Source: Chlorobaculum parvum NCIB 8327 (GTDB lineage: Bacteria; Bacteroidota; Chlorobiia; Chlorobiales; Chlorobiaceae). From it: a stretch of 64,000 nt of DNA. A program made the position numbers and the translations under genes. The stretch covers positions 356,001 through 420,000 of the forward strand of contig NC_011027.1 of the NCBI RefSeq assembly GCF_000020505.1. Direction: 5' to 3'. Positions 22,684-38,443 of the stretch are shown here, piece after piece (the stretch's first letter is position 1; each line of letters begins with the position of its first letter). The notes beneath the pieces were generated by a model that was not told the origin of the DNA, made no database searches, and was given only the letters and a program-made list of their open reading frames with translations.

Positions 22684-24054
22684 CTACACGTGATTTCTGT
22701 ACCAGCCGCGGTCGATCTTGGCTGAACCGGGGAGTGTCTGCCATGTCTGGATTCGATGCAGCGCAACCGGCGTCTTGAGCCTGCCGAGTTTGTCTCTCAG
22801 GCTTGCGATGATCGCAGCATCGTCGAGCGCGTCGCTCCGGGCTTTGATCCAAGCCACCGGCCTCATGCCGTACTCCGCGTCCGGCGCGGGAACCACCACT
22901 GCCTCCTCGATGCCTTCGATTGAGGTGAGCGCTTTTTCTATCTCTTCGGGGTGGATGTTCTCTCCGCCTGAAATAAACATGCTGTCCTTCCTACCGAGCA
23001 CGTTTAGCCGCGCGTCCTCCGACAGCTCACCCATGTCGCCCGTGTGGAACCAGCCCTCCGAATCTCTTGCTGTCCGTATCCCGTTTTCTTCGAGATAGCC
23101 CATGAAGAGGCACTCGCCTTTGACGAGGATTTCGCCGTCAGGTGAAATCGCAACTTTCCGATATGGCAGCACGACGCCGCTGTCGGCCTGTGCTTCGGTG
23201 ACGGGGGCAGGCGATGTGGTGACCTGCGTGCTCATTTCGGTTGAACCGTAGGTGAGGTAGAGCGGCACTTGCTCGCGTATGGCTTCGCGCAGGAGTGGTG
23301 CGCTGACCGCGCTGCCGCCGAGCAGCAAGGCTTTGAGGCTGCGCAGCCGTTCCTGGCCACCGTCGGTACGAAGCATCCGATAGAGCTGCGTCGGCACCAG
23401 CGAGAGATGCGTGACGGGGAAGGGCGTGAGCGAGTCCGCAAGCGACGCATCCGGCGACGGCATGGCGAGCGCGCCTCCACCGATGAGACATTTGAAAAGC
23501 ATAGAGTATCCGCCGACGTGGTAGAGTGGCAGCGAAAGCAGCCAGCAGTCGCCCGGCCCAAAGGGCAGGTTCTGCGCGGAACCCATCGCGCTGTGCCAGT
23601 GGTTCGAGAGGCTGTGCATGGCGGCTTTCGGCTTGCCGGAGCTGGCGGAGGTATGGATGATTGAGACAGGCCTCGACATCTCCGTTGCGGAAGTGAAACT
23701 CGCTTCCGTCCGGTTGAGTGCGTCAGTGATGAACGTTTCGAGCTTCGCCGCGTCGAGCGTCATCGTCGGCTTCAGCCGCGCGATGACGCCTTCGATGTGG
23801 CTTGCCGGGAATCGGTGGTTCACCGGCGCGGCGACTGCGCCCATGCGCATGAGCGCCATCAGCGCGAGTAGGATTGCCGCGCTGTTCGGCGCGACGAGCG
23901 CGACGATGTCGCCGCGCCGGGCGCCGCACGCCTCGAATGCGGCGGCGATGCGAGCGGTGTCGCCATCAAGCTCGCCGAAGCTCCAGCGCCGGTCGGCGGT
24001 GATGATGGCGGGCTGGTCGCCGAACTTCTGTGCGGCGTGGGCTACAATGTCCAT
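22684..24054 (-). CDS. menE: o-succinylbenzoate-CoA ligase
   Basis: An ANL-family adenylating enzyme that activates o-succinylbenzoate for ring closure by MenB in menaquinone synthesis. The 456-residue protein shows the phosphate loop SIIHTSASSGKPKAAMHS (T/S/G-rich A3 motif), LTYGSTEMSTQVT (A5), GWFHTGDMGELSEDARLNVLGRKDSMFISGGENI (A7-A8) and VVVPAPDAEYGMRPVAWI. Other acyl-CoA ligases share these motifs; the assignment rests on position at the end of menH-menB-menC-menE. It overlaps the end of menC by 13 bases. Confidence 0.92.
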   Translation of the reverse strand: MDIVAHAAQKFGDQPAIITADRRWSFGELDGDTARIAAAFEACGARRGDIVALVAPNSAAILLALMALMRMGAVAAPVNHRFPASHIEGVIARLKPTMTLDAAKLETFITDALNRTEASFTSATEMSRPVSIIHTSASSGKPKAAMHSLSNHWHSAMGSAQNLPFGPGDCWLLSLPLYHVGGYSMLFKCLIGGGALAMPSPDASLADSLTPFPVTHLSLVPTQLYRMLRTDGGQERLRSLKALLLGGSAVSAPLLREAIREQVPLYLTYGSTEMSTQVTTSPAPVTEAQADSGVVLPYRKVAISPDGEILVKGECLFMGYLEENGIRTARDSEGWFHTGDMGELSEDARLNVLGRKDSMFISGGENIHPEEIEKALTSIEGIEEAVVVPAPDAEYGMRPVAWIKARSDALDDAAIIASLRDKLGRLKTPVALHRIQTWQTLPGSAKIDRGWYRNHV

Positions 24055-25133
24055 GACTCGACGATTTCGATCATCTCCGGTTTCACGCGCAGGCTGTCAC
24101 GCCATGCGGCGGCGGGATCGGCGAAACCGTCCGGTGCGGCGAAGGGCGTGTCGGTAAGATCATCAGCCAGAAAGCTCGCCGTGTCAAGGCCGGACGCCGC
24201 CGGGTTTGGCGAGGAGACGGCGGCCAGGAGCGCGTACATACCGAGGCTGACGCTACTCTCGAAGGCCGAGCTGAAGACCGCCTGCAAGCCCATCCGATGC
24301 GCTTTGGCCGCGATGTCGAGCGATTTTGCGATGCCGCCGATGCAGTTTGGCTTGAGCACCAGTGCGCCGAGCGGTTCGGGGCCGATCTCGTCCAGTAGCT
24401 CCGGACGCTGCCAGAGCGACTCGTCGAGCGCTGACGGCAGGCTGGTTGCGGCGTGGAACTCCGGGATCAGCGCCGCATCAGTCAGCGGCTCCTCGATGTA
24501 CGAGATGCTGCCGTGCGGCAACGCTTTGCCGAACCCGACCGCCTCGTCGAAATCGAGCGACTGGTTGGCGTCGAGCCGCAGTTCGGCGTTGTTGCCGAAC
24601 ATGTCATGAAACGCCCGAATGCTGGCGATTGCTTCATCAAGCTGCCCTTTGCGCACCTTCAGCTTGAACGCGCGGAATCCCTCGGTGTAGCGCTTCGCCG
24701 CACGGTCGAGCACCGTCGCCGTATCTCCGGCCAGCAGCGCGTTGACGGGAATTTTCGATGCTGGAGAGAAGGCGTCAGGAAAAACTGGAATCGAGCCGGT
24801 TTCGAGAGCTTCGAGGTTGACGAGCGCCATTTCGATGCCTGTTGCCACCGACGGCGGCAGCTTCGTCTCGCCGATTAGCCGCAGCCGTTCGGCGGAAGTG
24901 TTCCGAGTGAGTCGTGAAAGTTCGGGAATGAATGCGGTGAGCACTTGCAATGCCTCGTCGAGCGATTCGGCGTGCAGGCCGGTGAGGGGGGCGATTTCGC
25001 CATATGCGGTCGCCCCCTCGCTTGTCAGGCGCAGGAGCAGCCCCTCGCGTTTTCGGAGGAGCACGCCCCTGACCGTGACCGGTGCAATAAACGGGAGTTC
25101 ATACCGGCAGATGTCGGCATGAAGCAGCTTCAC
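24042..25133 (-). CDS. menC: o-succinylbenzoate synthase
   Basis: An enolase-superfamily dehydratase converting SHCHC to o-succinylbenzoate. The 363-residue protein has the N-terminal capping domain ([38 protein letters not shown]) and the barrel with catalytic lysine in FKLKVRKGQ, metal ligands in [11 protein letters not shown] and SYIEEPL, ALDESLW and a second lysine in [10 protein letters not shown]. The start is GTG at 25131-25133, overlapping the menB stop as GTGA, which indicates tight coupling. Its place between menB and menE supports menC over other enolase-superfamily roles. Confidence 0.93.
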
Positions 25134-25951
25134 GGGTGTTTCGGGAACTTGCCGAAATCGGGTTTGCGCTTTTCGACGAAGGCGTTGCGGCCTTCCTGCC
25201 CCTCTTCGCTCATGTAGTAGAGCAGGGTGGCGTTGCCCGCAAGCTCCTGCAAACCGGCCTGGCCGTCGCAGTCGGCGTTCAGCGCGGCCTTCAGGCAGCG
25301 GATGGCGAGCGGCGAGTTGGCGAGGATTTCACGGCACCATTGCACGGTCTCCTCTTCGAGTCTTTCGAGCGGCACGACCGTGTTGACCAAGCCCATATCG
25401 AGCGCCTCCTGCGCGTTGTACTGGCGGCAGAGGTACCAGATTTCGCGGGCCTTTTTCTGACCAACAAGACGCGCCATGTAGCTCGCGCCCCAGCCGCCGT
25501 CGAACGAACCGACGCGCGGGCCGGTCTGGCCGAAGCGGGCGTTCTCGGCAGCAATCGTCAAATCGCAGAGCATGTGCAGCACGTGGCCGCCGCCGATGGC
25601 GTAGCCTGCCACCATCGCGATCAGCGGTTTCGGGCAGGTGCGGATATCGCGCTGGAAATCGAGCACGTTCAGCTTGTTGACGCCCTTCTCGTCGGCGTAC
25701 CCGGCATTGCCGCGAATCTTCTGGTCGCCGCCCGAGCAAAACGCTAGGTCGCCCTGTCCTGTCAGGATGATGACGCCAATCTGGCTGTCGTTACGTGCAT
25801 CCTGAAGCGCCTCGATCATCTGATCCACCGTCTGCGGGCGGAACGCATTGCGCCGCTCCGGGCGGTTGATGGTGATTTTGGCGATGCCCTCAGCCTTGTG
25901 GTAGAGGATGTCGGAGTACTCCCCGGCTGCAATCCAGTTGACTGTGCTCAT
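25130..25951 (-). CDS. menB: 1,4-dihydroxy-2-naphthoyl-CoA synthase
   Basis: A crotonase-fold enzyme that closes the naphthoate ring. Starting at [42 protein letters not shown] gives 273 residues, with oxyanion-hole segments [15 protein letters not shown] and [45 protein letters not shown], all diagnostic of MenB rather than of other enoyl-CoA hydratases. An upstream in-frame ATG (26017) would add 22 unrelated residues and was rejected. It is followed without gap by menC. Confidence 0.96.
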
Positions 25952-26084
25952 ATCGAAAGTGTCTGTGGTCGTTGATAAAAATCTGTATCGCCCCGATGGG
26001 GTGAAAAAAGAGTTCAAATATAAGCAATCCCGGTTGATTAGTGCGAGGTGATGCGGGAATGGGACTTATAGGGCGAATAGTACC

Positions 26085-26915
26085 TTATGGGACGAATTCT
26101 TTTGTGAGCGATATTTCAGTTTTGCTTTTCGATAAACCGCTCACGCTCGCGAGGAAGCGCTCCGGCTCTTCGATGTGCAACGTGTGGCCGCAATGTTCGA
26201 AGAGTTCGAGGCTCGATTGCGGGCACAGCTCAACCATCTGCTTGCCGATCTCCACGTACTTCGCATCTTTCTCGCCGACGCAGAAGAGCATCGGCAAGAG
26301 GTTGCCCGGCAGTTCGTCCCAGAACGATGGCTGGTTGCCCGTGCCGAGCAGGCGCAACGCGCAGGCGAGATTTTCCGGCGAACCCTGCTTGCGCTGTGCC
26401 TCGACTTCGTGGAAGAGATCGTGGCTTTTCAGCGTCGCGAAGAGCGGCTGGTCGTACCAGAACTGGATGAACCCCTCAAAATTCCGCTCGATCTTGCGGG
26501 CGATTCCCTCGTCGCTCTTCCGCCGCGCCGCATGCTCCTCCTCCGTGCGCAAGCCCGGCGACGACGACACGATCACCGCCTTCGAGAACAGCTCCGGATA
26601 ACGCAATGTCAGCGCCAGCCCGATCCGCCCGCCCATCGAATAGCCAACCAGCACGCATGGCCCAGCGCTCAACTGCCGAATCTCACCCGCCAGCGCTTCG
26701 ACCGTTTGCATGAAAAAAAGCTCCGGATCGCCATCCGCCGGAATTCCCGTTTCGCCATGCCCCGGCAGATCGACAAGGATGCTGCAAAAGCGATCCTCAA
26801 GTTTCCGGGCAAAGGAAAGCCAGTCGCTTCCCGAACCGAGGAATCCGTGCAGGAACACGATTTTTGGAAGTGACGGGTTGCCGACGGTGGTGAGGTGCAG
26901 GGGGATGTTTGGCAT
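26085..26915 (-). CDS. menH: 2-succinyl-6-hydroxy-2,4-cyclohexadiene-1-carboxylate (SHCHC) synthase
   Basis: An alpha/beta hydrolase-fold lyase that eliminates pyruvate from the MenD product. The 276-residue protein has IVFLHGFLGSGSDWLSFARKL and DLPGHGETG, the nucleophile elbow VGYSMGGRIGLALTLRYPELFSKAVIVSSSPG, and the C-terminal His in EHCGHTLHIEEPERFL. MenH and simple hydrolases are hard to separate, but the position just upstream of menB makes MenH much the best call. About 133 bases separate it from menB. It would be expected next to menD but is about 8.4 kb away. Confidence 0.9.
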   Translation of the reverse strand: MPNIPLHLTTVGNPSLPKIVFLHGFLGSGSDWLSFARKLEDRFCSILVDLPGHGETGIPADGDPELFFMQTVEALAGEIRQLSAGPCVLVGYSMGGRIGLALTLRYPELFSKAVIVSSSPGLRTEEEHAARRKSDEGIARKIERNFEGFIQFWYDQPLFATLKSHDLFHEVEAQRKQGSPENLACALRLLGTGNQPSFWDELPGNLLPMLFCVGEKDAKYVEIGKQMVELCPQSSLELFEHCGHTLHIEEPERFLASVSGLSKSKTEISLTKEFVP

Positions 26916-27037
26916 TGCTGAGGCGATTGTTTCGAGGCTTCGGCTTTCAGAGCAATATAGGACAAAGACAAAAAGGTGGGGTTATATTGAAAAAACGTAG
27001 TATCGGATTTGTCTTGAAATTAATGGTTTAGCGAGAC

Positions 27038-27517
27038 ATGGGCACGATTGACGATTATCGAACCGGTAAAATTGTCGAGGGTATCCGGAAGGCAGAATCG
27101 GCGCTTGATAACAGAAATTCATTTTCGGCTGACGATCCGGTGTTCGGGCATATTCGGGAAAAGATTGTGGCTTTCAAGCCAGTCTGGATCGCGAAGGAAC
27201 AGGCCGTCGAGATGATTCAGCAGTCGCGTACCCTTGCTGTCGGCGAGCGGGTTTGCCGGGCGTTGCATCCGGAGTCGCCGGAAACGCAAACCGTGTTTCT
27301 CGACGAGCTTGCCGAAGCGATGGCGGGGGCAGGCAAGGCCGAAATCGTGACGACGGCGGAGGCGGCGCAGCTCGTCAACCGGCAGTCGCGCGACCGGATC
27401 ATCGCCTCGATGGTGAGCGGCAACTACCTCGAACTCTGCTCGGCGCACCCTTCTGATTGCATCTTCTGCAAAGCTGAACGAGCTGGAATCAGGTGTTTTC
27501 CGGAGACTCTTCGGTAG
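27038..27517 (+). CDS. Hypothetical protein with a C-terminal four-cysteine cluster
   Basis: A 159-residue protein of no recognised family. The first 130 residues look alpha-helical and soluble, with no signal peptide. The end carries LELCSAHPSDCIFCKAERAG followed by IRCF, a C-x6-C-x2-C-x8-C spacing that could bind zinc or an iron-sulfur cluster; one further cysteine is in GERVCRAL. It is divergent from menH and is the first gene of a plus-strand series (this gene, DinB protein, Hhe-like protein, NAT) separating the two halves of the menaquinone genes. Confidence 0.65.
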   Translation: MGTIDDYRTGKIVEGIRKAESALDNRNSFSADDPVFGHIREKIVAFKPVWIAKEQAVEMIQQSRTLAVGERVCRALHPESPETQTVFLDELAEAMAGAGKAEIVTTAEAAQLVNRQSRDRIIASMVSGNYLELCSAHPSDCIFCKAERAGIRCFPETLR

Positions 27518-27588
27518 CTTCGGTTGTGTGAGTGAGTGAGCATCGCTAACTTGCGGAAAGCATTTTTCCCACTAAAATCGGAATTGCT

Positions 27589-28107
27589 ATGAGTGCACTC
27601 ACGCTGTTGACCGATATGTATCGGCACATGGCCTGGGCGGATGCCCTTGTCTTGACCACCGTTATGCAAAAGCCGGAAGCGGAGGGGGATGAGTATCTCC
27701 TTGCAAAGCTGCGGCATCTGCACGCAACCCAGAGGGTTTTTCTGGATGTGTGGACTGGCCGACCAATCGATCCGCGGGTGGCCGATGAACTTGACGTTCG
27801 TGCCCTCGCCGCATTTGCCCGTGAGGTGCATGATGGTGCGATGCAGTTCCTGGCATCCCAGACCTCAACTGGTCTGCAAAGCGTGATTGAGCTGCCGTGG
27901 TCGAAAACCGCAACCAAAAAGCTCGGGTTTGACGTTGCTGAACACACGCTTGCCGATACGCTCGTGCAGGTTCCATTGCACAGCTCTTCGCATCGTGGGC
28001 AGGTCAGTGCCCGGCTTCGAGAGCTCGGTATCGATCCCCCCATGACCGACTACATCGCCTGGATCTGGCGGCAAAAGCCTGAGGCTTCGTGGCCGGAGCT
28101 GTCCTGA
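27589..28107 (+). CDS. DinB-family four-helix protein
   Basis: A 172-residue protein of the DinB/YfiT-like metal-binding four-helix bundle. It shows LTDMYRHMAWADALVLTTV at the start, the first metal His in LLAKLRHLHATQRVFLDVW and the second site in VPLHSSSHRGQVSARLRELG. DinB proteins include thiol-dependent (bacillithiol, mycothiol) S-transferases, but many have no known substrate. The C-terminus TDYIAWIWRQKPE is also common in the family. It begins about 70 bases after the Cys-cluster gene. Confidence 0.88.
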   Translation: MSALTLLTDMYRHMAWADALVLTTVMQKPEAEGDEYLLAKLRHLHATQRVFLDVWTGRPIDPRVADELDVRALAAFAREVHDGAMQFLASQTSTGLQSVIELPWSKTATKKLGFDVAEHTLADTLVQVPLHSSSHRGQVSARLRELGIDPPMTDYIAWIWRQKPEASWPELS

Positions 28108-28305
28108 ATCCCTGAAATCGCCACACAACGATCTCTTCACGGCTCGGCGCTTTTGATGCCGCATCCCGAAGCTGACGGGCGTCTCTGTTCAGGTTCACCT
28201 GCGGACGAGTGTTTCTGCTATTCAGGCATTGAAAAACTCTCCTATATTGCTTTTTGCAGACAAGGGTTTGTTCCGTAAGCATTCCAATGAAAGGGTGATT
28301 GGGCG

Positions 28306-31300
28306 ATGAGTGAACCGAACAGGTCGGTGGTTATCCAGTGCGCGATGGCGGCGAAGCTGAATTTCGCGTGCCATCAGAGCGCGTTCGCGTTTCTGCGGGA
28401 GTTGCGGGTTGAAAACCGGTCGCCGGAAACGCCGTTAGAAGATGTTTCAGTGACGCTGTCGGCGAATCCTCCATTTCTGAAGCCGAAGTCGTGGCGGGTG
28501 GAACGGATCGATCCAGCGGGTTCGGTGTCGATTCCGGATCGGGATGTCGAACTCGATGGCGCGTTTCTGCTCGGCCTGACCGAATCGGTGCGCGGCACGG
28601 TGACGGTTGCTGTCGAAAAGGAGGGCGTGGCACTGGCCGAAGAGAGCCACCCGGTCGAATTGCTCGCGTTCAACGAGTGGGGTGGAGCGGGGTTTATGCC
28701 GGAGTTGTTGGCGGCCTTTTCGCTGCCGAACGATCCCTTCATCGACCGCCTCCTGCGCGAGGCGAGTCTGGTGTTGCGCAGGGCGGGGCGGCCCGACGGC
28801 ATCGACGGTTACGCGGCGGGCAGCCGCGAGCGGGTGTGGGAGATCGCCTCGGCGCTTTACACAGCGGTCTGCAATCTCGGCATCAGCTACGCGGTGCCGC
28901 CGTCGAGCTTCGAGCGCAACGGCCAGAAGATTCGCCTGCCTGGCCAGATCGCCGACAGCCGCGTGGCGACCTGCCTCGACCTGACGATGCTCTTCGTTTC
29001 GGCGCTGGAGCAGGCGGGCCTCAATCCCGTCGCCGTGCTGCCGGCGGGCCATGCGCTGGCGGGCGTCTGGCTGCAACCCGAGGAGCTTTCGACGATCGTC
29101 ATCGACGAGGCCGAGCCGCTGCGCAAGCGCATGCAGTTGAAGGAGTTGCTGCTCTTCGAAACCACCTTCGTGACTTCGTCGCCGCCTCCGCCATTCTCCA
29201 AAGCCGTGGCGGCGGCTGCCGACCTCATCGAGTCCGACAGGGAAGACACCTTCCAGCTTGCCGTCGATCTGCGCCGTGCTCGCGCCCACCGCATCATGCC
29301 GCTCGCCCTGACGAGCGCCCTGCCTTCTCCGCCATCGACCGACGACGACGGCAGCGCGGAGATCGCCTTCGAGGCGGCTCCGGCGCTTCCCGATTTCGAC
29401 GAGCTGACCGCCGAAGCGGCCCCGCCCGAAACGCCCGCCGGTCGGCTGGAGCACTGGCAGCGCAAGCTGCTCGATCTCTCGTTGCGCAACGCACTCCTGA
29501 ACCATCGCCCCGCGAAAAGCAGCCTTGCGCTGCTCTGTCCCGATCCGGTTTTGCTCGAAGACAAGCTGGCGGGAGGCGCGAAAATTTCGATCCAGCCCGT
29601 GCCGCGTACCGGCTCGCAGCAGCAGGACGAGGCGCTGCACCGCCAGCGCACGGGGGAGGTGATCGCCGAGGAGTACGCCCGCAACGCGCTCGAACAGAAC
29701 CAGGTGCTGGCCGATCTGCCGCCGGAGGAGCTGGTGCGCCGGTCGGTCGATCTTTACCGGAAGGCCAAAAGCTCGCTGGAGGAGGGGGGCGCGAACACGC
29801 TCTATCTCGCGTTCGGTTTTCTCTTGTGGAAGCAGGAGGTCAAGGAGAGCCGCCGGTTCCGCGCACCGCTGATTCTCGTGCCGGTTTCGCTGGAGCGCAA
29901 GTCGGTGCGGAGCGGCGTCAGAATCATCGCGCACGACGACGAGAGCCGTTTCAACACGACGCTGCTCGAACTGCTGCGCAAGGATTTCGGGATCGACATC
30001 CGGGGCCTCGACGGCGTGTTGCCGAAGGACGAAAAAGGGGTCGATGTGCAGGGCATCTGGGACAAGGTGCGCCGCGAGGTGAAAGATGCGCCCGGCTTCG
30101 AGGTGATCGAGGAGGTGGTGCTGGGCCACTTCTCCTTCGCCAAATATCTGATGTGGAAGGATATGGTGGATCGCGCCGAGGCGCTGCGCCAGAGCGCGGT
30201 TGTGCGCCACCTGATCGACACGCCGCGCGATCCCTTCCCGAGTGACATCGCGTTTGCCGATGCCGACCAGCTCGACCGCGAGTTCGCGCCTTCCGACCTG
30301 TTGACGCCACTGCCCGCCGATTCATCTCAAATGGCGGCTATTGCCAGTGCGGATCGCGGGAAGAATTTCATCATCATCGGCCCGCCAGGTACGGGCAAAA
30401 GCCAGACCATCGCCAACCTGATTGCCCACGCGCTCGGCAAGGGGCGGCGGGTGCTGTTCGTCTCCGAAAAGACCGCTGCGCTCGATGTCGTCCATCGCCG
30501 TCTCGAAAGTGTCGGGTTGGGACGATTTTGCCTGCAACTGCACTCCAGCAAGGCGCGGAAGGCGGACGTGCTGGCGCAACTCGGCAGGGCGTGGGAGCAG
30601 CGCCAGCTTGCCGACGAGGCGGAGTGGACGCGTGAAGCCGGACGGCTCGGCCAACTGCGCGACCGGCTGAACCTCGTGGTTGACCGGCTCCACCAGAAGC
30701 GTCGTAACGGTCTGACGGCGCACGAGGCGATGGGCGTGAAAGTGCGCGACGAGGCGCTGACGTCGCGCGTGCAGTTTGCATGGCCCTCCACCGACCGGCA
30801 CGACGAAGCGCAGTTGCAGGCGATGCGCGAGGCCGCCACGCGCTTGCGCATCCAGGCGGCGGCAATCGGCGAAGTCACGGGAACGCCGCTTCAGCTCATC
30901 GCTTCCGGTGAGTGGAGTCCGCAGTGGGAACATCGGGTCGTGGAAGCTTCCCGCCGACTTGCCGCCGCATCTGCCGCGCTCGAAGCGGCGACTGGCGCGT
31001 TGCTCGATGCGGTCGGCATTGCGTTGCCCGACCGGACGCTCGAACGTCTCGACGCGCTGGCCGGGTTTGCGGCGCTGCTGTCGGAATCGTACCGAACGCA
31101 GGTCGGCTTTGCGCTCGAAGCTGACGGAGCGGAGCGGATCGAAGCGCTCGAAGAGGCGGTGCGCCGCCTCAAGGCTTACGCCGAAGCGCAGGCCGGGCTG
31201 AGCTGTTCGTACGAAGCGCTTGCGTGGCGCACGCTGGATGGCGGCGACATCGCCCGGCGCTGGCAGGAGGCCGAGGCCGCGTGGGGACCGAAAAAGTTTT

Positions 31301-33534
31301 TCGCCAAACGGACCCTCGTCAAGGAGATGAAAGCGGGCGGCGCGAAGGGCGAACCCGACCCGGAGCGCGATGCGGGGGCACTGCAACGGATGCGCGAGGA
31401 GGGGGAGGCGATTGACCGGCTGGAGCGGCAGTTGTCAGGCTTCCGCTCGTGGGCAGGCTACGAGACCAGCCCCGGCGAAGTCGAGGCGCTGCAACAGCTT
31501 GGCGAGCGCGTCAGGTCAGCGGTCACTCGACTGGCCGACGATCCGGCATCGCTCGTAGAGCTTCGCGGCAAGGTGCGCGGCCTGTTGCACGAGGGCAACG
31601 ATCTGCTCGCTCCCGATGCGGTGGTCGGACGTGCCGTCGCGGCTTTTGCGGAAGTGCACTGCGAGTTCCAGGCGGCGTGCGCAGCGTTCGAGGCGCTGGC
31701 CGGGCAGTCCGTCCGCGGCTCTTTCGCGGGCAACGCCGAGGCGCTCGCCGCCGTTCGCGAAGCTGTCGAAGCGATCGCGGCGCGTCATGCGGAGCTGCGC
31801 GACTGGTGCGCGTGGCGTCGCGCCCGCGCCGGGGCCGTCGAGCTGGAGCTGACGCCGCTCGTCGAGGCGTTGGAGGCGGGTTCAGCGCCGGTCGAAGAGA
31901 TCGAGCAGACCTTTGAGGCTGCCTACTGCGCGTGGTATTCGGCGGCGGTGATCGGCGAGGACGAGGTGCTGCGCAGCTTCTCGACGCCCGAGCACGCGGC
32001 GGCAATCGACGAATTCCGTCAGCTCGACAGCCGGTTCCGCCAGCTCACCGCCGACTACATCGCCGCCAAGCTCTCCGGCGGCCTGCCCGATGCCGACGAG
32101 GTGACGCGCGCCTCCGCGTGGGGAATCCTTCGTCGGGAACTTCAGAAGAAAAGTCGCCACAAACCGGTGCGCCAACTGCTCGAAGAGATTCCCGAAGTGG
32201 TCACCGCGCTCGCCCCCTGCCTGATGATGTCGCCTCTGTCGGTCGCGCAGTATTTGCCCGCCGACGAAGAGCTGTTCGACCTCGTGATTTTCGATGAAGC
32301 GTCGCAGATCACCGTCTGGGACGCCGTGGGCACGCTCGCTCGTGGGAAGCAGGTGATCGTGGCGGGCGACCCGAAGCAGATGCCGCCGACCAACTTCTTC
32401 GCCCGCTCGGACGACGACCCCGACGGCGAGCTTGATGGCGAGGGCGATCTGGAGAGCATTCTCGACGAGATGATGGGAGCGAGCATTCCGGAGCGCCTGC
32501 TCAACCTGCACTACCGGTCACGCCGCGAGAGCCTCATCGCTTTCTCCAACAGCCGCTACTACGGCAACGAGCTGGTCACTTTCCCCGCGCCGATCCATCC
32601 CGACTGTGCGGTCACGCTGGTGCGTCCGGAAGGCATCTATGCGCGGGGCAAGGAGCGGCAGAACGAGGGTGAAGCACGGGCAATCGTCGCCGAGATTCTG
32701 CGCCGGATCACCCACGAAAGCGAGGCGGTGCGCCAGCAGTCCATCGGCGTGGTGACCTTCAATTCCGAACAGCAGACACTGATCGAGAACTTGCTCGACG
32801 CCGAACGCTCGAAGAATTCCGCCATCGAGTGGGCCTTTTCATCCGAACAGACGCTCGAACCGGTGTTCGTCAAAAACCTCGAAACCGTCCAGGGTGACGA
32901 GCGGGACGTGATCCTCTTCAGCGTCACCTACGGCCCCGACCGGAACGGCTACGTCACGATGAACTTCGGCCCGCTGAACCGGCTGGGAGGCGAGCGTCGC
33001 CTGAACGTGGCGATGACGCGCGCCCGTTCGGAGATGATGGTTTTTTCGACGCTTGCGCCGGAGATGATCGACCTGTCGCGCACCCAGTCTCGGGCGGTGG
33101 CTGACCTGAAGCACTTCCTCGAATACGCCGAGCGCGGCCCGTCGGTGCTTGGTGCACCGCTACGGAATTCGCCCTCTCAAAGCAGCTCGGCGCTCGAAAC
33201 CGCCGTAGCTCGCGCCCTCGGCGACAAGGGCTGGGTGGTGCATTCGCAAGTCGGCGTCTCGGCCTACCGCATCGATCTCGGAATCGTCCATCCCGACGAT
33301 CCAAACCGCTACCTCGCCGGCGTGGAATGCGACGGCTCGATGTACCGCAGCGCCACCTTCGCCGCCGAGCGCGACAAGATTCGCCAGTCGGTGCTCGAAG
33401 GGCTGGGCTGGCGTCTGCTCAGGCTCTGGTCGCTCGACTGGTGGACGCATCCGCAGAAAGCCATCGACGAACTGCACAGCGCGTTGACGGCACTGCTGGA
33501 AGAGGATCGGGCGGCCATGAAGAATAATCTTTAA
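28306..33534 (+). CDS. Giant DUF4011-helicase-nuclease protein (Hhe-like defence), with N-terminal transglutaminase-like domain
   Basis: A 1742-residue protein. Domains by position: a beta-rich N-terminus (about 10-115); a papain/transglutaminase-like segment with C223 in ATCLDLTMLFVSALEQAG, H249 in PAGHALAGVW and an acid at 266-267; DUF4011 (from about 382, LEHWQRKLLDLSLRNALLNH); a superfamily 1 (Upf1-like) helicase with Walker A GPPGTGKS (692-699), DEAS (1330-1333), GDPKQMPP (1354 on) and RLNVAMTRAR. It ends in an MTES_1575/Vsr-like nuclease with E1631, D1657 and E-C-D (1674-1676), followed by IRQSVLEGLGWRLLRLWSLDWW. DUF4011-helicase-Vsr proteins are a described single-gene anti-phage system (Hhe). 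The transglutaminase-like call is mine. The base composition is like the host's. Confidence 0.85.
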   Translation: MSEPNRSVVIQCAMAAKLNFACHQSAFAFLRELRVENRSPETPLEDVSVTLSANPPFLKPKSWRVERIDPAGSVSIPDRDVELDGAFLLGLTESVRGTVTVAVEKEGVALAEESHPVELLAFNEWGGAGFMPELLAAFSLPNDPFIDRLLREASLVLRRAGRPDGIDGYAAGSRERVWEIASALYTAVCNLGISYAVPPSSFERNGQKIRLPGQIADSRVATCLDLTMLFVSALEQAGLNPVAVLPAGHALAGVWLQPEELSTIVIDEAEPLRKRMQLKELLLFETTFVTSSPPPPFSKAVAAAADLIESDREDTFQLAVDLRRARAHRIMPLALTSALPSPPSTDDDGSAEIAFEAAPALPDFDELTAEAAPPETPAGRLEHWQRKLLDLSLRNALLNHRPAKSSLALLCPDPVLLEDKLAGGAKISIQPVPRTGSQQQDEALHRQRTGEVIAEEYARNALEQNQVLADLPPEELVRRSVDLYRKAKSSLEEGGANTLYLAFGFLLWKQEVKESRRFRAPLILVPVSLERKSVRSGVRIIAHDDESRFNTTLLELLRKDFGIDIRGLDGVLPKDEKGVDVQGIWDKVRREVKDAPGFEVIEEVVLGHFSFAKYLMWKDMVDRAEALRQSAVVRHLIDTPRDPFPSDIAFADADQLDREFAPSDLLTPLPADSSQMAAIASADRGKNFIIIGPPGTGKSQTIANLIAHALGKGRRVLFVSEKTAALDVVHRRLESVGLGRFCLQLHSSKARKADVLAQLGRAWEQRQLADEAEWTREAGRLGQLRDRLNLVVDRLHQKRRNGLTAHEAMGVKVRDEALTSRVQFAWPSTDRHDEAQLQAMREAATRLRIQAAAIGEVTGTPLQLIASGEWSPQWEHRVVEASRRLAAASAALEAATGALLDAVGIALPDRTLERLDALAGFAALLSESYRTQVGFALEADGAERIEALEEAVRRLKAYAEAQAGLSCSYEALAWRTLDGGDIARRWQEAEAAWGPKKFFAKRTLVKEMKAGGAKGEPDPERDAGALQRMREEGEAIDRLERQLSGFRSWAGYETSPGEVEALQQLGERVRSAVTRLADDPASLVELRGKVRGLLHEGNDLLAPDAVVGRAVAAFAEVHCEFQAACAAFEALAGQSVRGSFAGNAEALAAVREAVEAIAARHAELRDWCAWRRARAGAVELELTPLVEALEAGSAPVEEIEQTFEAAYCAWYSAAVIGEDEVLRSFSTPEHAAAIDEFRQLDSRFRQLTADYIAAKLSGGLPDADEVTRASAWGILRRELQKKSRHKPVRQLLEEIPEVVTALAPCLMMSPLSVAQYLPADEELFDLVIFDEASQITVWDAVGTLARGKQVIVAGDPKQMPPTNFFARSDDDPDGELDGEGDLESILDEMMGASIPERLLNLHYRSRRESLIAFSNSRYYGNELVTFPAPIHPDCAVTLVRPEGIYARGKERQNEGEARAIVAEILRRITHESEAVRQQSIGVVTFNSEQQTLIENLLDAERSKNSAIEWAFSSEQTLEPVFVKNLETVQGDERDVILFSVTYGPDRNGYVTMNFGPLNRLGGERRLNVAMTRARSEMMVFSTLAPEMIDLSRTQSRAVADLKHFLEYAERGPSVLGAPLRNSPSQSSSALETAVARALGDKGWVVHSQVGVSAYRIDLGIVHPDDPNRYLAGVECDGSMYRSATFAAERDKIRQSVLEGLGWRLLRLWSLDWWTHPQKAIDELHSALTALLEEDRAAMKNNL

Positions 33535-33561
33535 GAGCAACCACGTGATCGTTTCCTTTCC

Positions 33562-34335
33562 ATGAACGCAGCCAATTTCGATCTTTCGTCCTATCTGTCA
33601 CGCATTGGCTTCAACGGCAATCCGGTTGGGGATTTCGAGACGCTGAAGCGTTTGATGCGCTGCCAGCTCTTTTCGGTGCCGTTCGAAAATCTCGATGTGC
33701 AGGCCGGGCAGGTGCCGTCGCTTGTGCCTGAAGAGATTTGCGACAAGATCGTCAAACGGCGGCGCGGCGGGTACTGCTACGAAGTGAACGCTATCTTCGC
33801 AATGGCGCTGGAGGCTCTCGGCATTCCGTACCGCTTCGTGGCGGCGCGGCCCATGACCTACGCCGTCCGCCGCCCCAAAACCCACATGGCGATCATCGCC
33901 TCCATCGACGGCGCGGAGTGGCTCTGCGACCTCGGTTTTGGCAGTTACGGCATCCGCGAGCCGATCAACCTCGAATGGCTCGACCGGCAGATCGTCCAGG
34001 AGTGCGACACCTTCAGGCTCACGATGGTTTCGGAGCGCGACTACCGGTTGCAGTCGATGAGTGATGGCGAGTGGAAAGCGCTTTACGAGTTCAACCTCTG
34101 TCCGCAAGAGCTTGTGGATTTCGAGCCGGCCAACTGGCTCAACGCGACCCATCCCGACTCGATTTTCGTGCAGGCGCCGATCGTGGTGTTGCAGCACGCA
34201 TCGGGCAAAACGGTGCTCAGCGGCGAGCGTTTCCGGGCGGTCTCCGAAGAAGGCCAGGTGGAGGAGAGGCGTGTTGGCGAGAATGAGATTGAGGAATTGC
34301 TGCGGGCGCGCTTTGGGCTTGATTGGCATCCTTGA
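33562..34335 (+). CDS. nat: Arylamine N-acetyltransferase
   Basis: An acetyl-CoA-dependent transferase acting on aromatic amines and hydrazines, cytosolic. The 257-residue protein has the N-terminal pattern YLSRIGFNGNP...FSVPFENLDV and a full catalytic triad: C72 in RRRGGYCYEVN, H108 in KTHMAII and D123 in CDLGFGSYGIREP. It starts 27 bases after the giant helicase gene and is on the same strand, so the two may be co-transcribed, though nothing suggests a shared role. Confidence 0.94.
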   Translation: MNAANFDLSSYLSRIGFNGNPVGDFETLKRLMRCQLFSVPFENLDVQAGQVPSLVPEEICDKIVKRRRGGYCYEVNAIFAMALEALGIPYRFVAARPMTYAVRRPKTHMAIIASIDGAEWLCDLGFGSYGIREPINLEWLDRQIVQECDTFRLTMVSERDYRLQSMSDGEWKALYEFNLCPQELVDFEPANWLNATHPDSIFVQAPIVVLQHASGKTVLSGERFRAVSEEGQVEERRVGENEIEELLRARFGLDWHP

Positions 34336-34407
34336 GGCGTCAGTGCGGCGAGCAAAATGGTTCTGGCGACATCGTGTGTGCTGAGGCCGCCAGAACAGGA
34401 GAGAAGC

Positions 34408-34986
34408 TTAAAAAACAAGGTAGGCGCGTGCCTGATCGAGCTTGTAGCCCCAAGGCAAACCGGCGTTCTTCCAGCCATTGACCGTGCGGAAACCTTCCTT
34501 GCTCTTGTCTCCTTCAAAGCCTTCATACACCGAATAGACGTTGGTGTAACCCGCTTTGGTGAGGAGGTCGGCAGCAGCAGCGCTGCGGTCACCGGAACGG
34601 CAAATCAGGATGATTGGATCGGTTTTTTTCAGGCCACGGGCAGCGAGCGCATCAGCGATCTTCATGGTGAAAGCTGAGTTGGGGCTCATCTGGTAACGGT
34701 TTTTCTTGCTGTCCCAGGTCGAGAAATCGTTCAGCATGTAAGGAATGTTCAGATTGACCTGGTCGGCAATTCCCACATATTCGTTCTCTTCTGGCGTCCT
34801 GATATCGACGAAGAGCACCTTTGCAGGAGCTTTGGTTACCATTTCATAAGCACCTTTGGCGGACAGGTACTTGCCGGAAATGGTGCGTTTCTTTTCCGGG
34901 AGTTGGCTTGCATCGAAGGATGCGGCGTGCAGCAGGCTTGTCGAAACCAGCAGGAGGGTGACGACCAGGGAGACGATTTTTTTCAT
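34408..34986 (-). CDS. Exported rhodanese-domain protein
   Basis: A periplasmic or secreted single-domain rhodanese, 192 residues, presumably a sulfurtransferase handling sulfane sulfur. The start MKKIVSLVVTLLLVSTSLLHAA is a clear signal peptide, preceded by AAGGGA. The domain shows VLFVDIRTPEENEYVG and the active loop CRSGDRSAAAADLLTKAGYTNVYSVYEGFEGD (C129). A longer start at 35034 has no leader character and was rejected. Such proteins are common among sulfur-oxidising green sulfur bacteria. An AT-rich palindrome lies in its upstream region. Confidence 0.9.
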   Translation of the reverse strand: MKKIVSLVVTLLLVSTSLLHAASFDASQLPEKKRTISGKYLSAKGAYEMVTKAPAKVLFVDIRTPEENEYVGIADQVNLNIPYMLNDFSTWDSKKNRYQMSPNSAFTMKIADALAARGLKKTDPIILICRSGDRSAAAADLLTKAGYTNVYSVYEGFEGDKSKEGFRTVNGWKNAGLPWGYKLDQARAYLVF

Positions 34987-35093
34987 GAGGATTTCCCTTG
35001 TTTTGAGGGTTGTCGAGAAAGAGTTGATGGTCACTGGAGATTTGAGGTACTCTGAAGAGCATGCCGTGTGAATGGCCCCTTTTCTCTATTAGT

Positions 35094-35109
35094 GATATAT
35101 AACTATATC
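35094..35109. promoter_or_regulatory. Palindrome upstream of the rhodanese gene, possible operator
   Basis: GATATATAACTATATC has 6-base arms GATATA and TATATC around TAAC and lies in a very AT-rich patch (35089-35120) of otherwise G+C-rich DNA, about 108-123 bases ahead of the rhodanese start codon. The rest of the 34987-35285 gap holds no gene that I can see. Confidence 0.35.
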
Positions 35110-35285
35110 GCTATATAAAAAAGTTGATCGGAATTTGCAAGCTCGCAAGCGCTGATTTTTAACAATTGTTTCGAGGTAGTCCGTGCGCTTTTAACGCCGT
35201 TGCTGCACGATGAAAGGGAGATAAGGTGTTTCTTTGCAGTGCGTTGTTGTGACGGTGCGGCCTCTCGATAGTCCGCCGGTTTTTA

Positions 35286-37037
35286 TCAATTACCGAAGAT
35301 GCCGGCTTTCTCGAAAATCGGGTCGAGTTTCGCTTTGAGGGTGCGGTGGAGGAGCAGGTTTGCCTGACGGTTGCTTCTGATTTCGATGACGAGGCTTTTG
35401 TTGCGTTTGAGCGCGTCAGCGTAGAGTTCTGTGAACTCGCGGTTGCTTGCAGGGCTGGCGTAGTCGAGGTCGAAGGTGCGGGCTGCGGATTCGATGCTGA
35501 AATTCTGCGGGGTGGCGAAGCACTCGTCGAGCCGGTCGGTTTGCGACGCAATGGGCAGGAATGAGAAGATGCCGCCTCCGTTGTTGTTCAGCACGATGAC
35601 GATCAGCGGGTTTGTGGGATTGTCGAGCAGCGAGAGCGCGTTCAGGTCGTGCAGGAACGAGATGTCGCCGATGAGCAGCGTGGTCGGTTTGTCAAGCCCG
35701 GCAGAGAATCCCGCCGCTGTCGAAATGATACCGTCGATGCCACTGACACCCCGGTTCAGCTCCACGCGCAGGGGCTTTTCCGAGACAGGCGCGGCGTACA
35801 GATCCATGTCGCGCGCGGGCATGCTGTTGGCTACGAAAAGGGCGTGTTTGCCGTCAGTAAGCGACGAAACGATGCGTGGCGCGGAGATTTCGTTGACCGG
35901 CTCATCAGGCGCGCACGCCGCTGTGTCAATCGTGTGAGCAACTTCCGAAAAGAGAGCAGCAAATCCGCCCATCTCCGCAGGCTTGCGGCATTCGGAAAGC
36001 GCCGAGACGACGGCAGCGGGCGACGCTTCAATGCTCAGGGTGACGTTGTGGTCGGGGTTGAAACGGCCGGGATGGTTCCTGACCACGACGTAATGAAATG
36101 GCGGTTCCTTCCGCAGCGTCATTGCTGGCTGTTTGCCGATCAGTGCTCCGCCGAAATGGATCACCACGTCGGGTTTGAAGCTGGTCGCGAAAGTTTCATT
36201 TTGGAACGCCAATTGCCATGGTGTGCACTTGTTCGTAAGCCGCAAGCCGGAGGTGAGATCGGCAAAGAGCAGAATGCCGAGCGAGTCGGCCAGCGAAGCT
36301 ACGGCCTCGGCATCATCAGCTTTATCCATGCTGCCAGCGACAAAAAGCGGACGCTCGGCATTGGCAAGGATTTGTTGGAGCGCTGTCAACGCATTGGCGT
36401 CCGGCGCGGTTCGGGGCTGTTCAAAGCGGCACCAGGGTTGCTCGGAGGCCAGCCAGTTGCGAAGCGGCTCAACCCAGGGGTGAGCCAGATCGTGTGATTC
36501 CGGTTCGAGCGGTTCGCGGAATGGCAGGTTCAGGTGCACCGGCCCCGCCGGAGATCCAAGGCTGCGCTTGACCGCTTGCCCGACCGTTGAAAGCAGCGAG
36601 GCGAGCGGTGTGCCAGTGCCGGGTTCGGGAAGTTCGAGGTTCCAGCGAGTGTAGCTGCCGAAGATATCCTGCTGGCGGATGGTCTGGTTTGCTCCGGCAT
36701 CGAGCAGCTCGAAGGGGCGGTCAGCCGAGAGCACGAGCATCGGTTGTGCGTCTGCCGATGCTTCGACGACAGCCGGGAAGTAGTTTGCCACGGCGGTGCC
36801 GGAGGTGCAGACGAGTACGGCAGGTTTGCCGGCCGCCCTGGCGTAACCGAGCGCGTAAAAGCCCGCTGAGCGCTCGTCGGGGAACATCCTGAATCGCGCG
36901 TTCGGATTGGCTGCCACGGCCAGGGTCAGCGGCGTCGATCGGGAGCCGGGGGAGATACAGAAAAATCCGGCGCCCTGCCGGATCAACTCTTCAACGATCA
37001 CCCTGCACCAGAGGGTTGTGATCTGTTTGTGGTTCAT
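35286..37037 (-). CDS. menD: SEPHCHC synthase (MenD)
   Basis: A ThDP-dependent enzyme that joins isochorismate and 2-oxoglutarate, the committed step to menaquinone. Starting at MNHKQITTLWCRVIVEELIRQG gives 583 residues. Blocks: FCISPGSRSTPLTLAVAANP with the ThDP-activating glutamate in DERSAGFYALGYARA, VCTSGTAVANYFPAVVEA, RPFELLDAGANQTIRQ and the C-terminal ThDP site GDISFLHDLNAL...NNNGGGIFSFLP. Longer ORF forms reaching 37445 read through menF in another frame. The ATG overlaps the menF stop as ATGA, so menF-menD is an operon. Confidence 0.97.
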   Translation of the reverse strand: MNHKQITTLWCRVIVEELIRQGAGFFCISPGSRSTPLTLAVAANPNARFRMFPDERSAGFYALGYARAAGKPAVLVCTSGTAVANYFPAVVEASADAQPMLVLSADRPFELLDAGANQTIRQQDIFGSYTRWNLELPEPGTGTPLASLLSTVGQAVKRSLGSPAGPVHLNLPFREPLEPESHDLAHPWVEPLRNWLASEQPWCRFEQPRTAPDANALTALQQILANAERPLFVAGSMDKADDAEAVASLADSLGILLFADLTSGLRLTNKCTPWQLAFQNETFATSFKPDVVIHFGGALIGKQPAMTLRKEPPFHYVVVRNHPGRFNPDHNVTLSIEASPAAVVSALSECRKPAEMGGFAALFSEVAHTIDTAACAPDEPVNEISAPRIVSSLTDGKHALFVANSMPARDMDLYAAPVSEKPLRVELNRGVSGIDGIISTAAGFSAGLDKPTTLLIGDISFLHDLNALSLLDNPTNPLIVIVLNNNGGGIFSFLPIASQTDRLDECFATPQNFSIESAARTFDLDYASPASNREFTELYADALKRNKSLVIEIRSNRQANLLLHRTLKAKLDPIFEKAGIFGN

Positions 37038-38443
37038 CGTCCCTGCCGGGTTATGGCCAGAATATCGCCGATCTTCTGATCGACCTCCTCCCACTCCGAC
37101 TCGGGATCGGAGCCTCGCACGAGTCCGGCTCCCGAATAGAGATAGACCTTGTCTTCGAAAATCAGTGCCGAACGGATGCCGACGGCGAACTCGGCGGCGT
37201 CGCGGCTGAGCCAGCCCACCGGTGCGGCGTACCAGCCACGGCAGAACGGTTCGACCGACAGGATCAGCTCCATCGCCTCTTCGCGCGGCACTCCACCGAC
37301 GGCCGGAGTCGGGTGGAGCTGGCGGAGTACCGTGCTGTCGTTGCGGAACTCTGGGCGCAGCCGGGCGCGGCACCGCGCGTAGAGGTGGGCCAGGCGGTTG
37401 AGCTGGAGCACACCGACCTCCTCCTGCATGTCGATCTCGCTGCACACCGGTTGCAGTTCGCGGTAGATGGTGTCCTTCACGAAGCGGTGCTCCCGGACAT
37501 CCTTTTCTGAGGCGAGCAGCAGTTTCGAGGCGGTGTGGTCGTCGGCTTTCACCTTCTCCTTGGTGACCGTGCCAGCAAGTGCTTCGGTCTGGAGCAGGTC
37601 GCCATCGCGGCGGTAGAGCCGTTCGGGCGTGAAGCTCACGAAGGCGTGACCCTCGATCGGTTCGAAATAGAAGCGATAGGCGGCGTTCTCAGGATATGGG
37701 TAGTCGAGCAGGAAGCGGATGGCCGGAACCTTGCCGGAAAAACTCAACTCGGTCTGCCGGGCGAGGATCACCTTGTCGAGTCCGCCTTCGTCGAATTTCC
37801 TTAGAATCGTTTCGCAACGCTCGATCCACTGTGCCCGGTCGGGGCTGTAGGCGGTTCGGGTTCTTCCAGGAATCGCGGGCGTCTTTACAGCCTGTTCGCT
37901 CCTGAGCGAAGCCAGGGTCTGCAAGAGCTGTTCGAGGGCCTGCTTGCGGTCGTCCTCAGGCTTGAGCCAGACCGAGCAGGTCATCGAGGTTTTGCCGTCA
38001 CGGTGCTCCAGGCTGATGAGTGGCAGAATGAACAGCGCCGAGCTGAAGCCGTGCCAGATGTGATCCTGTTGCTGGCGGTTGTTGAAGCAGAATCCGCCTA
38101 CATATCGGGCGTGCGGATTTTTCAGCTTCAGGGCTTCTTCAAGCAGGGTGAAACTTCGTTCGTTCGGGCCGGTTTCGGTGATTTCGATGCGGTCGGCTTC
38201 TCCGATGCCTGCGATCCACTCGCTTTTCTCGCGGTTCATCCAGAAAAGCTTTGGAAACTGCTGCCTTTCCGCAAGCCAGGCCGGGCCGTCGACCGAGCCG
38301 TCAATGCTGGTGGTGAAGCTTTCCAGCACGGGCCTGCCGTTGTCGTTATGCGGCGGTTGGGGCTGCGCAATGGCGGCTTTCACCGATTCTTCGAGGAGTT
38401 GAAGTGCCTTTTGCAACATTAGGGTACTATCGTCCGCCGGCAT
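37034..38443 (-). CDS. menF: Isochorismate synthase
   Basis: A chorismate-utilising Mg2+ enzyme that starts menaquinone synthesis. The 469-residue protein has the family's C-terminal catalytic half: FSFTPERLYRRDGDLLQTEALAGT, KDVREHRFVKDTIYRELQPVCSEI, LHPTPAVGGVPREEAMELI, EPFCRGWYAAPVGW and FAVGIRSALIFEDKVYLYSGAGLVRGSDPE. Anthranilate and aminodeoxychorismate synthases share part of this, but the menD neighbour decides the call. The start is MPADDSTLML at 38443. A TPR lipoprotein gene lies upstream 13 bases away on the same strand. Confidence 0.95.
   Translation of the reverse strand: MPADDSTLMLQKALQLLEESVKAAIAQPQPPHNDNGRPVLESFTTSIDGSVDGPAWLAERQQFPKLFWMNREKSEWIAGIGEADRIEITETGPNERSFTLLEEALKLKNPHARYVGGFCFNNRQQQDHIWHGFSSALFILPLISLEHRDGKTSMTCSVWLKPEDDRKQALEQLLQTLASLRSEQAVKTPAIPGRTRTAYSPDRAQWIERCETILRKFDEGGLDKVILARQTELSFSGKVPAIRFLLDYPYPENAAYRFYFEPIEGHAFVSFTPERLYRRDGDLLQTEALAGTVTKEKVKADDHTASKLLLASEKDVREHRFVKDTIYRELQPVCSEIDMQEEVGVLQLNRLAHLYARCRARLRPEFRNDSTVLRQLHPTPAVGGVPREEAMELILSVEPFCRGWYAAPVGWLSRDAAEFAVGIRSALIFEDKVYLYSGAGLVRGSDPESEWEEVDQKIGDILAITRQGR

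Follow-up and report, generated by a model that had tools for sequence, protein, structure and literature searches.

What does the long N-terminal region that precedes a DUF4011-helicase-nuclease module contribute to a giant protein of the green sulfur bacterium Chlorobaculum parvum NCIB 8327, and to which defence family does this protein belong? Fusions of a transglutaminase (TG)-like peptidase, an SF1 helicase, a Vsr-family REase and a wHTH domain with HEPN were described previously, and it was proposed that the TG domain adds another layer of defence by cleaving proteins (Anantharaman et al., 2013; PMC3710099). The gene analysed here lies in a 64,000-nt window of NC_011027.1 (the whole stretch of DNA that was studied; all coordinates are window positions), and its features are collected in Table 1. 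A previous, sequence-only reading of this DNA had proposed a TG-like cysteine protease in front of a DUF4011 domain, an SF1 helicase and a Vsr-like nuclease, and had likened the part behind the protease to the Hhe single-gene defence architecture. The three downstream domains were all matched by Pfam, and the helicase motifs are intact, namely GPPGTGKS (Walker A, residues 692-699), FDEAS (DEAS, 1330-1333), GDPKQ (1354-1358) and VAMTRAR (motif VI, 1566-1576). Residues 1-365 yielded zero Pfam matches, TG-family models included.

Table 1. Features of the ProA-type gene and its insertion site, in window positions
Feature	Position	Strand	Basis
ProA-type protein, 1742 aa: Ig-like + TG-like + DUF4011 + SF1 helicase + MTES_1575 nuclease	28306..33534	+	NCBIfam NF058533
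N-terminal beta-sandwich (Ig/CARDB-like), residues ~8-119	28327..28662	+	AF2 model mostly strand
Predicted TG-like cysteine hydrolase core, residues 120-335	28663..29310	+	AF2, core-only Foldseek, DUF553 in 7/23 members
C223, proposed nucleophile, first residue of helix 223-236	28972..28974	+	59/61 Cys; DSSP of model
H249, proposed catalytic His, flanked by strands 241-246 and 251-255	29050..29052	+	60/61 His; DSSP of model
E285, putative third catalytic residue, in FETT at the end of strand 281-285	29158..29160	+	61/62 Glu, 1 Asp
DUF4011, residues 387-557	29464..29976	+	PF13195 5e-49
SF1 helicase, residues ~672-1580	30319..33045	+	AAA_11/AAA_12; aligned relatives retain the motifs
MTES_1575 Vsr-like nuclease, residues 1631-1727 (RIDL ... 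VECDG)	33196..33486	+	PF18741 1e-30; motif alignment
Interval missing from two genomes of the genus, where the DinB-like gene adjoins the NAT gene	28108..33561	.	L092, L093

The question of family membership is settled by profile scores. The NCBIfam model NF058533, ‘anti-phage protein ProA’, aligns to residues 19-1739 over model positions 1-1715 with 2049.1 bits (2050 bits in the genome-level search) against a cut-off of 1500, whereas the Hhe model NF042953 gives 784.2 bits, below its curated cut-off of 2000. On these scores the assignment to Hhe has to be abandoned, and the window protein belongs to ProA, a separately named family whose model takes in the N-terminal domain. The match to ProA is full-length in the sense that the N-terminal TG-containing region (model ~1-345) is present; the difference lies at the other end, where the window protein stops at model position 1715 and lacks positions 1716-1903 (~190), the DUF3320/wHTH end, which is also missing from several other relatives and is not needed to pass the ProA cut-off. 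With Hhe (NF042953, PADLOC Hhe) the window protein shares DUF4011, the SF1 helicase and the MTES_1575 nuclease, but the Hhe protein L097, whose genome yields no TG match, falls in a clade devoid of the TG-like domain that the window protein carries. The best PADLOC model, the candidate single-gene defence model PDC-S37 (1135 bits), likewise covers the DUF4011-helicase-nuclease part; it differs in that it begins at residue 380, so that the TG-like half is ignored. The distribution of ProA is patchy: 12 of the 198 genomes of the same phylum exceed the ProA cut-off in a profile search, and the N-terminal profile was matched in 31 of 398 genomes of another phylum.

The nature of the N-terminal region was addressed by structure prediction and fold search. 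An AF2 model of residues 1-372, built from 23 sequences, has a mean pLDDT of 91 and consists of a beta-rich unit (residues 8-119) followed by an alpha/beta unit. When this whole model was used as a Foldseek query, transglutaminase 2 and factor XIII came out on top (E 2e-4). These matches were rejected as proof of a TG core: they span 115-124 columns, beta-galactosidases appear alongside, the matches are mainly of Ig-type sandwich length, and the viral-library search with the same model returned Ig-like proteins, all of which indicates that the transglutaminase 2 and factor XIII alignments most likely cover residues 8-119. These residues are modelled as a separate Ig-like domain, and CARDB gives a weak score in one relative that has this module. 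The core (residues 120-335) modelled alone (pLDDT 92.8, pTM 0.92) gave a Foldseek list that is mostly made up of TG-superfamily proteins, with modest scores (best E-value 2.1e-3, TMq at most 0.39). The matches include the 3kd4 protease, PNGase, the 4xz7 TGase, 3isr, CPR-C4, the pseudomurein endoisopeptidases PeiP/PeiW, TgpA, TglA, XPC/Rad4, menin and arylamine N-acetyltransferase. The Pfam family DUF553, ‘Transglutaminase-like domain’, was matched in 7 of the 23 members (best 1.7e-4; none in the window protein), and Transglut_core weakly in a single member; no relative among solved structures was retrieved when the N-terminal profile was run against PDB sequences. The window domain resembles DUF553/Transglut_core and PNGase in its predicted TG-like fold and in the Cys-His-acid triad of those enzymes, and differs from them and from XPC/Rad4 in that its sequence similarity lies below the family cut-offs. 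Taken together, fold, profile and conservation (see below) support a predicted TG/papain-like cysteine-hydrolase fold for residues ~120-335; no fold lacking the TG core was encountered. The interval 28306-29100 originally assigned to this domain leaves E285 outside and holds only part of the core, which extends to residue ~335 (base 29310).

The putative active site can be delineated from 62 distinct ProA-type TG-like domains joined to DUF4011. The cysteine and histidine singled out by the sequence-only reading lie where it had placed them (C223 in SRVATCLDLTM, H249 in VLPAGHALAGV) and are near-invariant among these homologues (59/61 and 60/61, respectively), as is G253 (Gly in 61/61). The acidic residue lies elsewhere: I266-D267 are indeed found at the indicated place (STIVIDEAEP), but D267 is Asp in only 37 of 61 domains and was rejected as the third catalytic residue. 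By contrast, E285 is Glu in 61 of 62, with Asp in the remaining one, and the nearby T287 is retained in 59 of 62. This difference in conservation is the basis on which C223-H249-E285 is proposed as the putative catalytic triad of the TG-like domain. The Cys, His and Glu motifs are kept in many far-diverged relatives of other architectures, and distant matches to the N-terminal profile retain GDCDD ... DH ... ETT, some of them also scoring DUF553; judged by this conservation, the C-H-acid pattern exceeds chance. The cysteine can nevertheless be lost, since Ala replaces it in L013 and L084, the latter of which is also devoid of the His and forms a very long branch in the helicase region.

The history of the domain was traced in a tree of 73 rows built from the DUF4011-Walker A region. 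Twelve TG-less proteins, including the Hhe protein L097, form one clade with a support of 98/93, and presence of the TG domain is the mark of the ProA side; L031 and L114, scored as lacking the domain, have it in an adjacent ORF. Because the sampled TG-less relatives fall in one clade, the TG domain is read as retained rather than shuffled, with long branches leaving some deep placements uncertain. Within the family, the seven homologues read from Akkermansiaceae (L011-L015, L020, L021) are of particular interest. In 7/7 of these proteins the nuclease motif GIECDGxxYH is changed to GIVLDGxxYA or similar, so that Glu and His are both lost; the helicase motifs are kept, and the Cys-His-Glu of the TG-like domain is intact in 6/7. 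These sequences form one clade and hence count as one case in evolutionary terms, and in nucleases of this kind acidic residues are able to migrate. Still, loss of the nuclease Glu with retention of the triad implies that the TG activity may be kept for its own sake, and this case suggests that the putative activity matters independently of the nuclease. The nuclease of the window protein retains VECDG but, like that of L031, has YR in place of the usual YH; with Arg replacing the common His, it may be altered as well.

Several other forms of the gene were observed. The ProA-type genes L055 (L031) and L114 are split, the TG-like part and the DUF4011-helicase lying in separate ORFs that overlap, a configuration that could represent either decay or a two-gene form; L083 is another split gene. 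The open frame of L065 encodes 2404 aa, with an N-terminal extension of 326 residues that has no Pfam match, and that of L117 encodes 2286 aa. L046-L051, from other genomes, are proteins of ~835 aa with the same Ig-like and TG-like module at residues ~310-600 and without a helicase, which also give weak TPR or CsgG matches; no defence context was seen for standalone relatives of the TG domain.

The ProA gene lies between two genes that are adjacent in relatives. It is flanked upstream by a DinB-like gene (27589-28107) and downstream by an arylamine N-acetyltransferase (NAT) gene (33562-34335), within a menaquinone gene cluster that has MenF and MenD on one side and MenH, MenB, MenC and MenE on the other. 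In two genomes of the same genus (G052 and G106), the DinB-like and NAT genes adjoin, ~44 bp apart; the ProA gene is a clean insertion between them. The G+C content is 66% for the ProA gene and 58% for the window. Relatives are carried on plasmids of Klebsiella, Rhizobium and Acinetobacter, on an ICE-like plasmid of Pseudomonas and on IMG/VR contigs. The menaquinone cluster as a whole (22684-38443) contains ~8 kb of variable gene content between MenD and MenH, and given that same-genus genomes carry different genes in this gap, it looks like an insertion hotspot. The NAT gene itself encodes another member of the TG-like-fold superfamily; it is present in relatives without ProA and so is native to the site, which makes its pairing with ProA probably coincidental. 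Neighboring genes differ between distant ProA loci, and ProA is accordingly probably a one-gene system. A conserved upstream partner was considered and rejected, the recurring ORFs of ~290 aa having proved unrelated except among close relatives. PADLOC, run on 60 neighbor proteins, gave scattered matches to PglW, a type I REase and PD-T4-6, in one member each and with no background rate for comparison.

The reading that we favor, and consider reasonably probable, is that this gene encodes a horizontally acquired, stand-alone ProA anti-phage protein that would combine a TG-like cysteine hydrolase, with C223-H249-E285 as its triad, and a helicase-nuclease; the analysis shows its architecture, predicted fold, conserved residues, family and insertion site, whereas catalysis, substrate and defence in this host are the inferred parts. 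Under this scheme, the DUF4011-helicase would engage foreign or replicating DNA, and ATP-driven movement would bring the nuclease to DNA, which it would cut; the same movement would let the TG-like domain reach a protein that it might cleave or deamidate. The substrate could be a DNA-bound phage protein, a host protein or ProA itself, and the TG-like domain could act as a second effector or as an activation switch.

A switch of this kind would be intramolecular, the TG-like domain cutting its own polypeptide or a partner and thereby releasing the nuclease. Protease and nuclease do share one polypeptide, the absence of a conserved partner gene fits a substrate in cis, and an analogous logic has been published for Hachiman and AVAST, in which pro-nucleases are activated by trypsin-like proteases (PMC12799240). 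We nevertheless regard a switch as unlikely: no cleavage site was identified, and retention of the triad in Akkermansiaceae despite the lost nuclease Glu would not be expected of a pure nuclease activator, which is why an independent effector is preferred. In its strongest form, which we put forward only tentatively as a rather improbable proposition, the domain would be a true second effector, a cysteine protease delivered by the motor against DNA-bound phage or host proteins, and would have become the main effector in Akkermansiaceae after nuclease loss, amounting to helicase-guided proteolytic immunity.

The domain could also bind rather than cut. In XPC/Rad4, a TG-like domain without the catalytic triad helps DNA binding, and the ProA domain might similarly grip DNA or a partner, its conserved residues being structural. 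The presence of XPC/Rad4 and menin among the core Foldseek matches, the fusion to a DNA motor and the loss of the Cys in L013 and L084 are all compatible with such a role. However, the triad is near-invariant in very diverged proteins in which adjacent residues vary, and many distant relatives of other architectures have it too; on the former ground an independent effector is preferred, and a mere binding module seems quite unlikely. More doubtful still is a housekeeping helicase-nuclease of DNA repair or replication: although the closest solved relatives by sequence are SF1 helicases of the SMUBP2/Upf1 kind, the patchy distribution, the occurrence on plasmids (one of them ICE-like), the clean insertion and the matches to NCBIfam and PADLOC defence models all speak for defence. 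That the TG-like domain is a functionless passenger of chance fusion or decay can be considered only an extremely slim prospect. Occasional split genes (L031/L055, L083, L114) and the two Cys-less relatives would fit it, but domain and helicase remain together in many phyla, the sampled TG-less relatives fall in one clade, and the columns of the putative catalytic residues rank with the best conserved.

Much of the outline is thus already known, namely the ProA family name (NCBIfam), the TG-helicase-Vsr architecture and, for related proteins, the idea of protein cleavage. As far as the literature search went (the primary description of ProA was not found), the putative Cys-His-Glu assignment appears to be new, as do the TG domain as a marker of the ProA side, with the sampled TG-less relatives including Hhe in one clade, the loss of the nuclease Glu in Akkermansiaceae with the triad kept, and the clean insertion between the DinB-like and NAT genes. 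If the proposed role is correct, the joining of a protease to a DNA helicase-nuclease would enable one protein to hit both phage DNA and protein, or would employ proteolysis as a safety catch. The residues to mutate can now be named, C223, H249 and E285 rather than D267, and the Akkermansiaceae copies provide a natural experiment through which the TG domain's role can be tested directly.

Among known systems, the MTES_1575-type giant proteins (PMC3710099) share with the window protein the TG-like peptidase, the SF1 helicase and the Vsr-family REase. They differ in carrying HEPN and wHTH, whereas the window protein starts with an Ig-like domain and lacks the DUF3320 end; an N-terminal HEPN was not matched by Pfam, and residues 8-119 are modelled as a beta-sandwich. 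The nuclease-protease pairs of Hachiman and AVAST consist of a trypsin-like protease and a separate gene for an MBL-type nuclease (PMC12799240). Although the folds of these pairs are unrelated to the TG-like and Vsr-like ones and their nuclease resides in its own gene, they are similar to the proposed ProA arrangement in that protease and nuclease activities are joined in antiviral systems.
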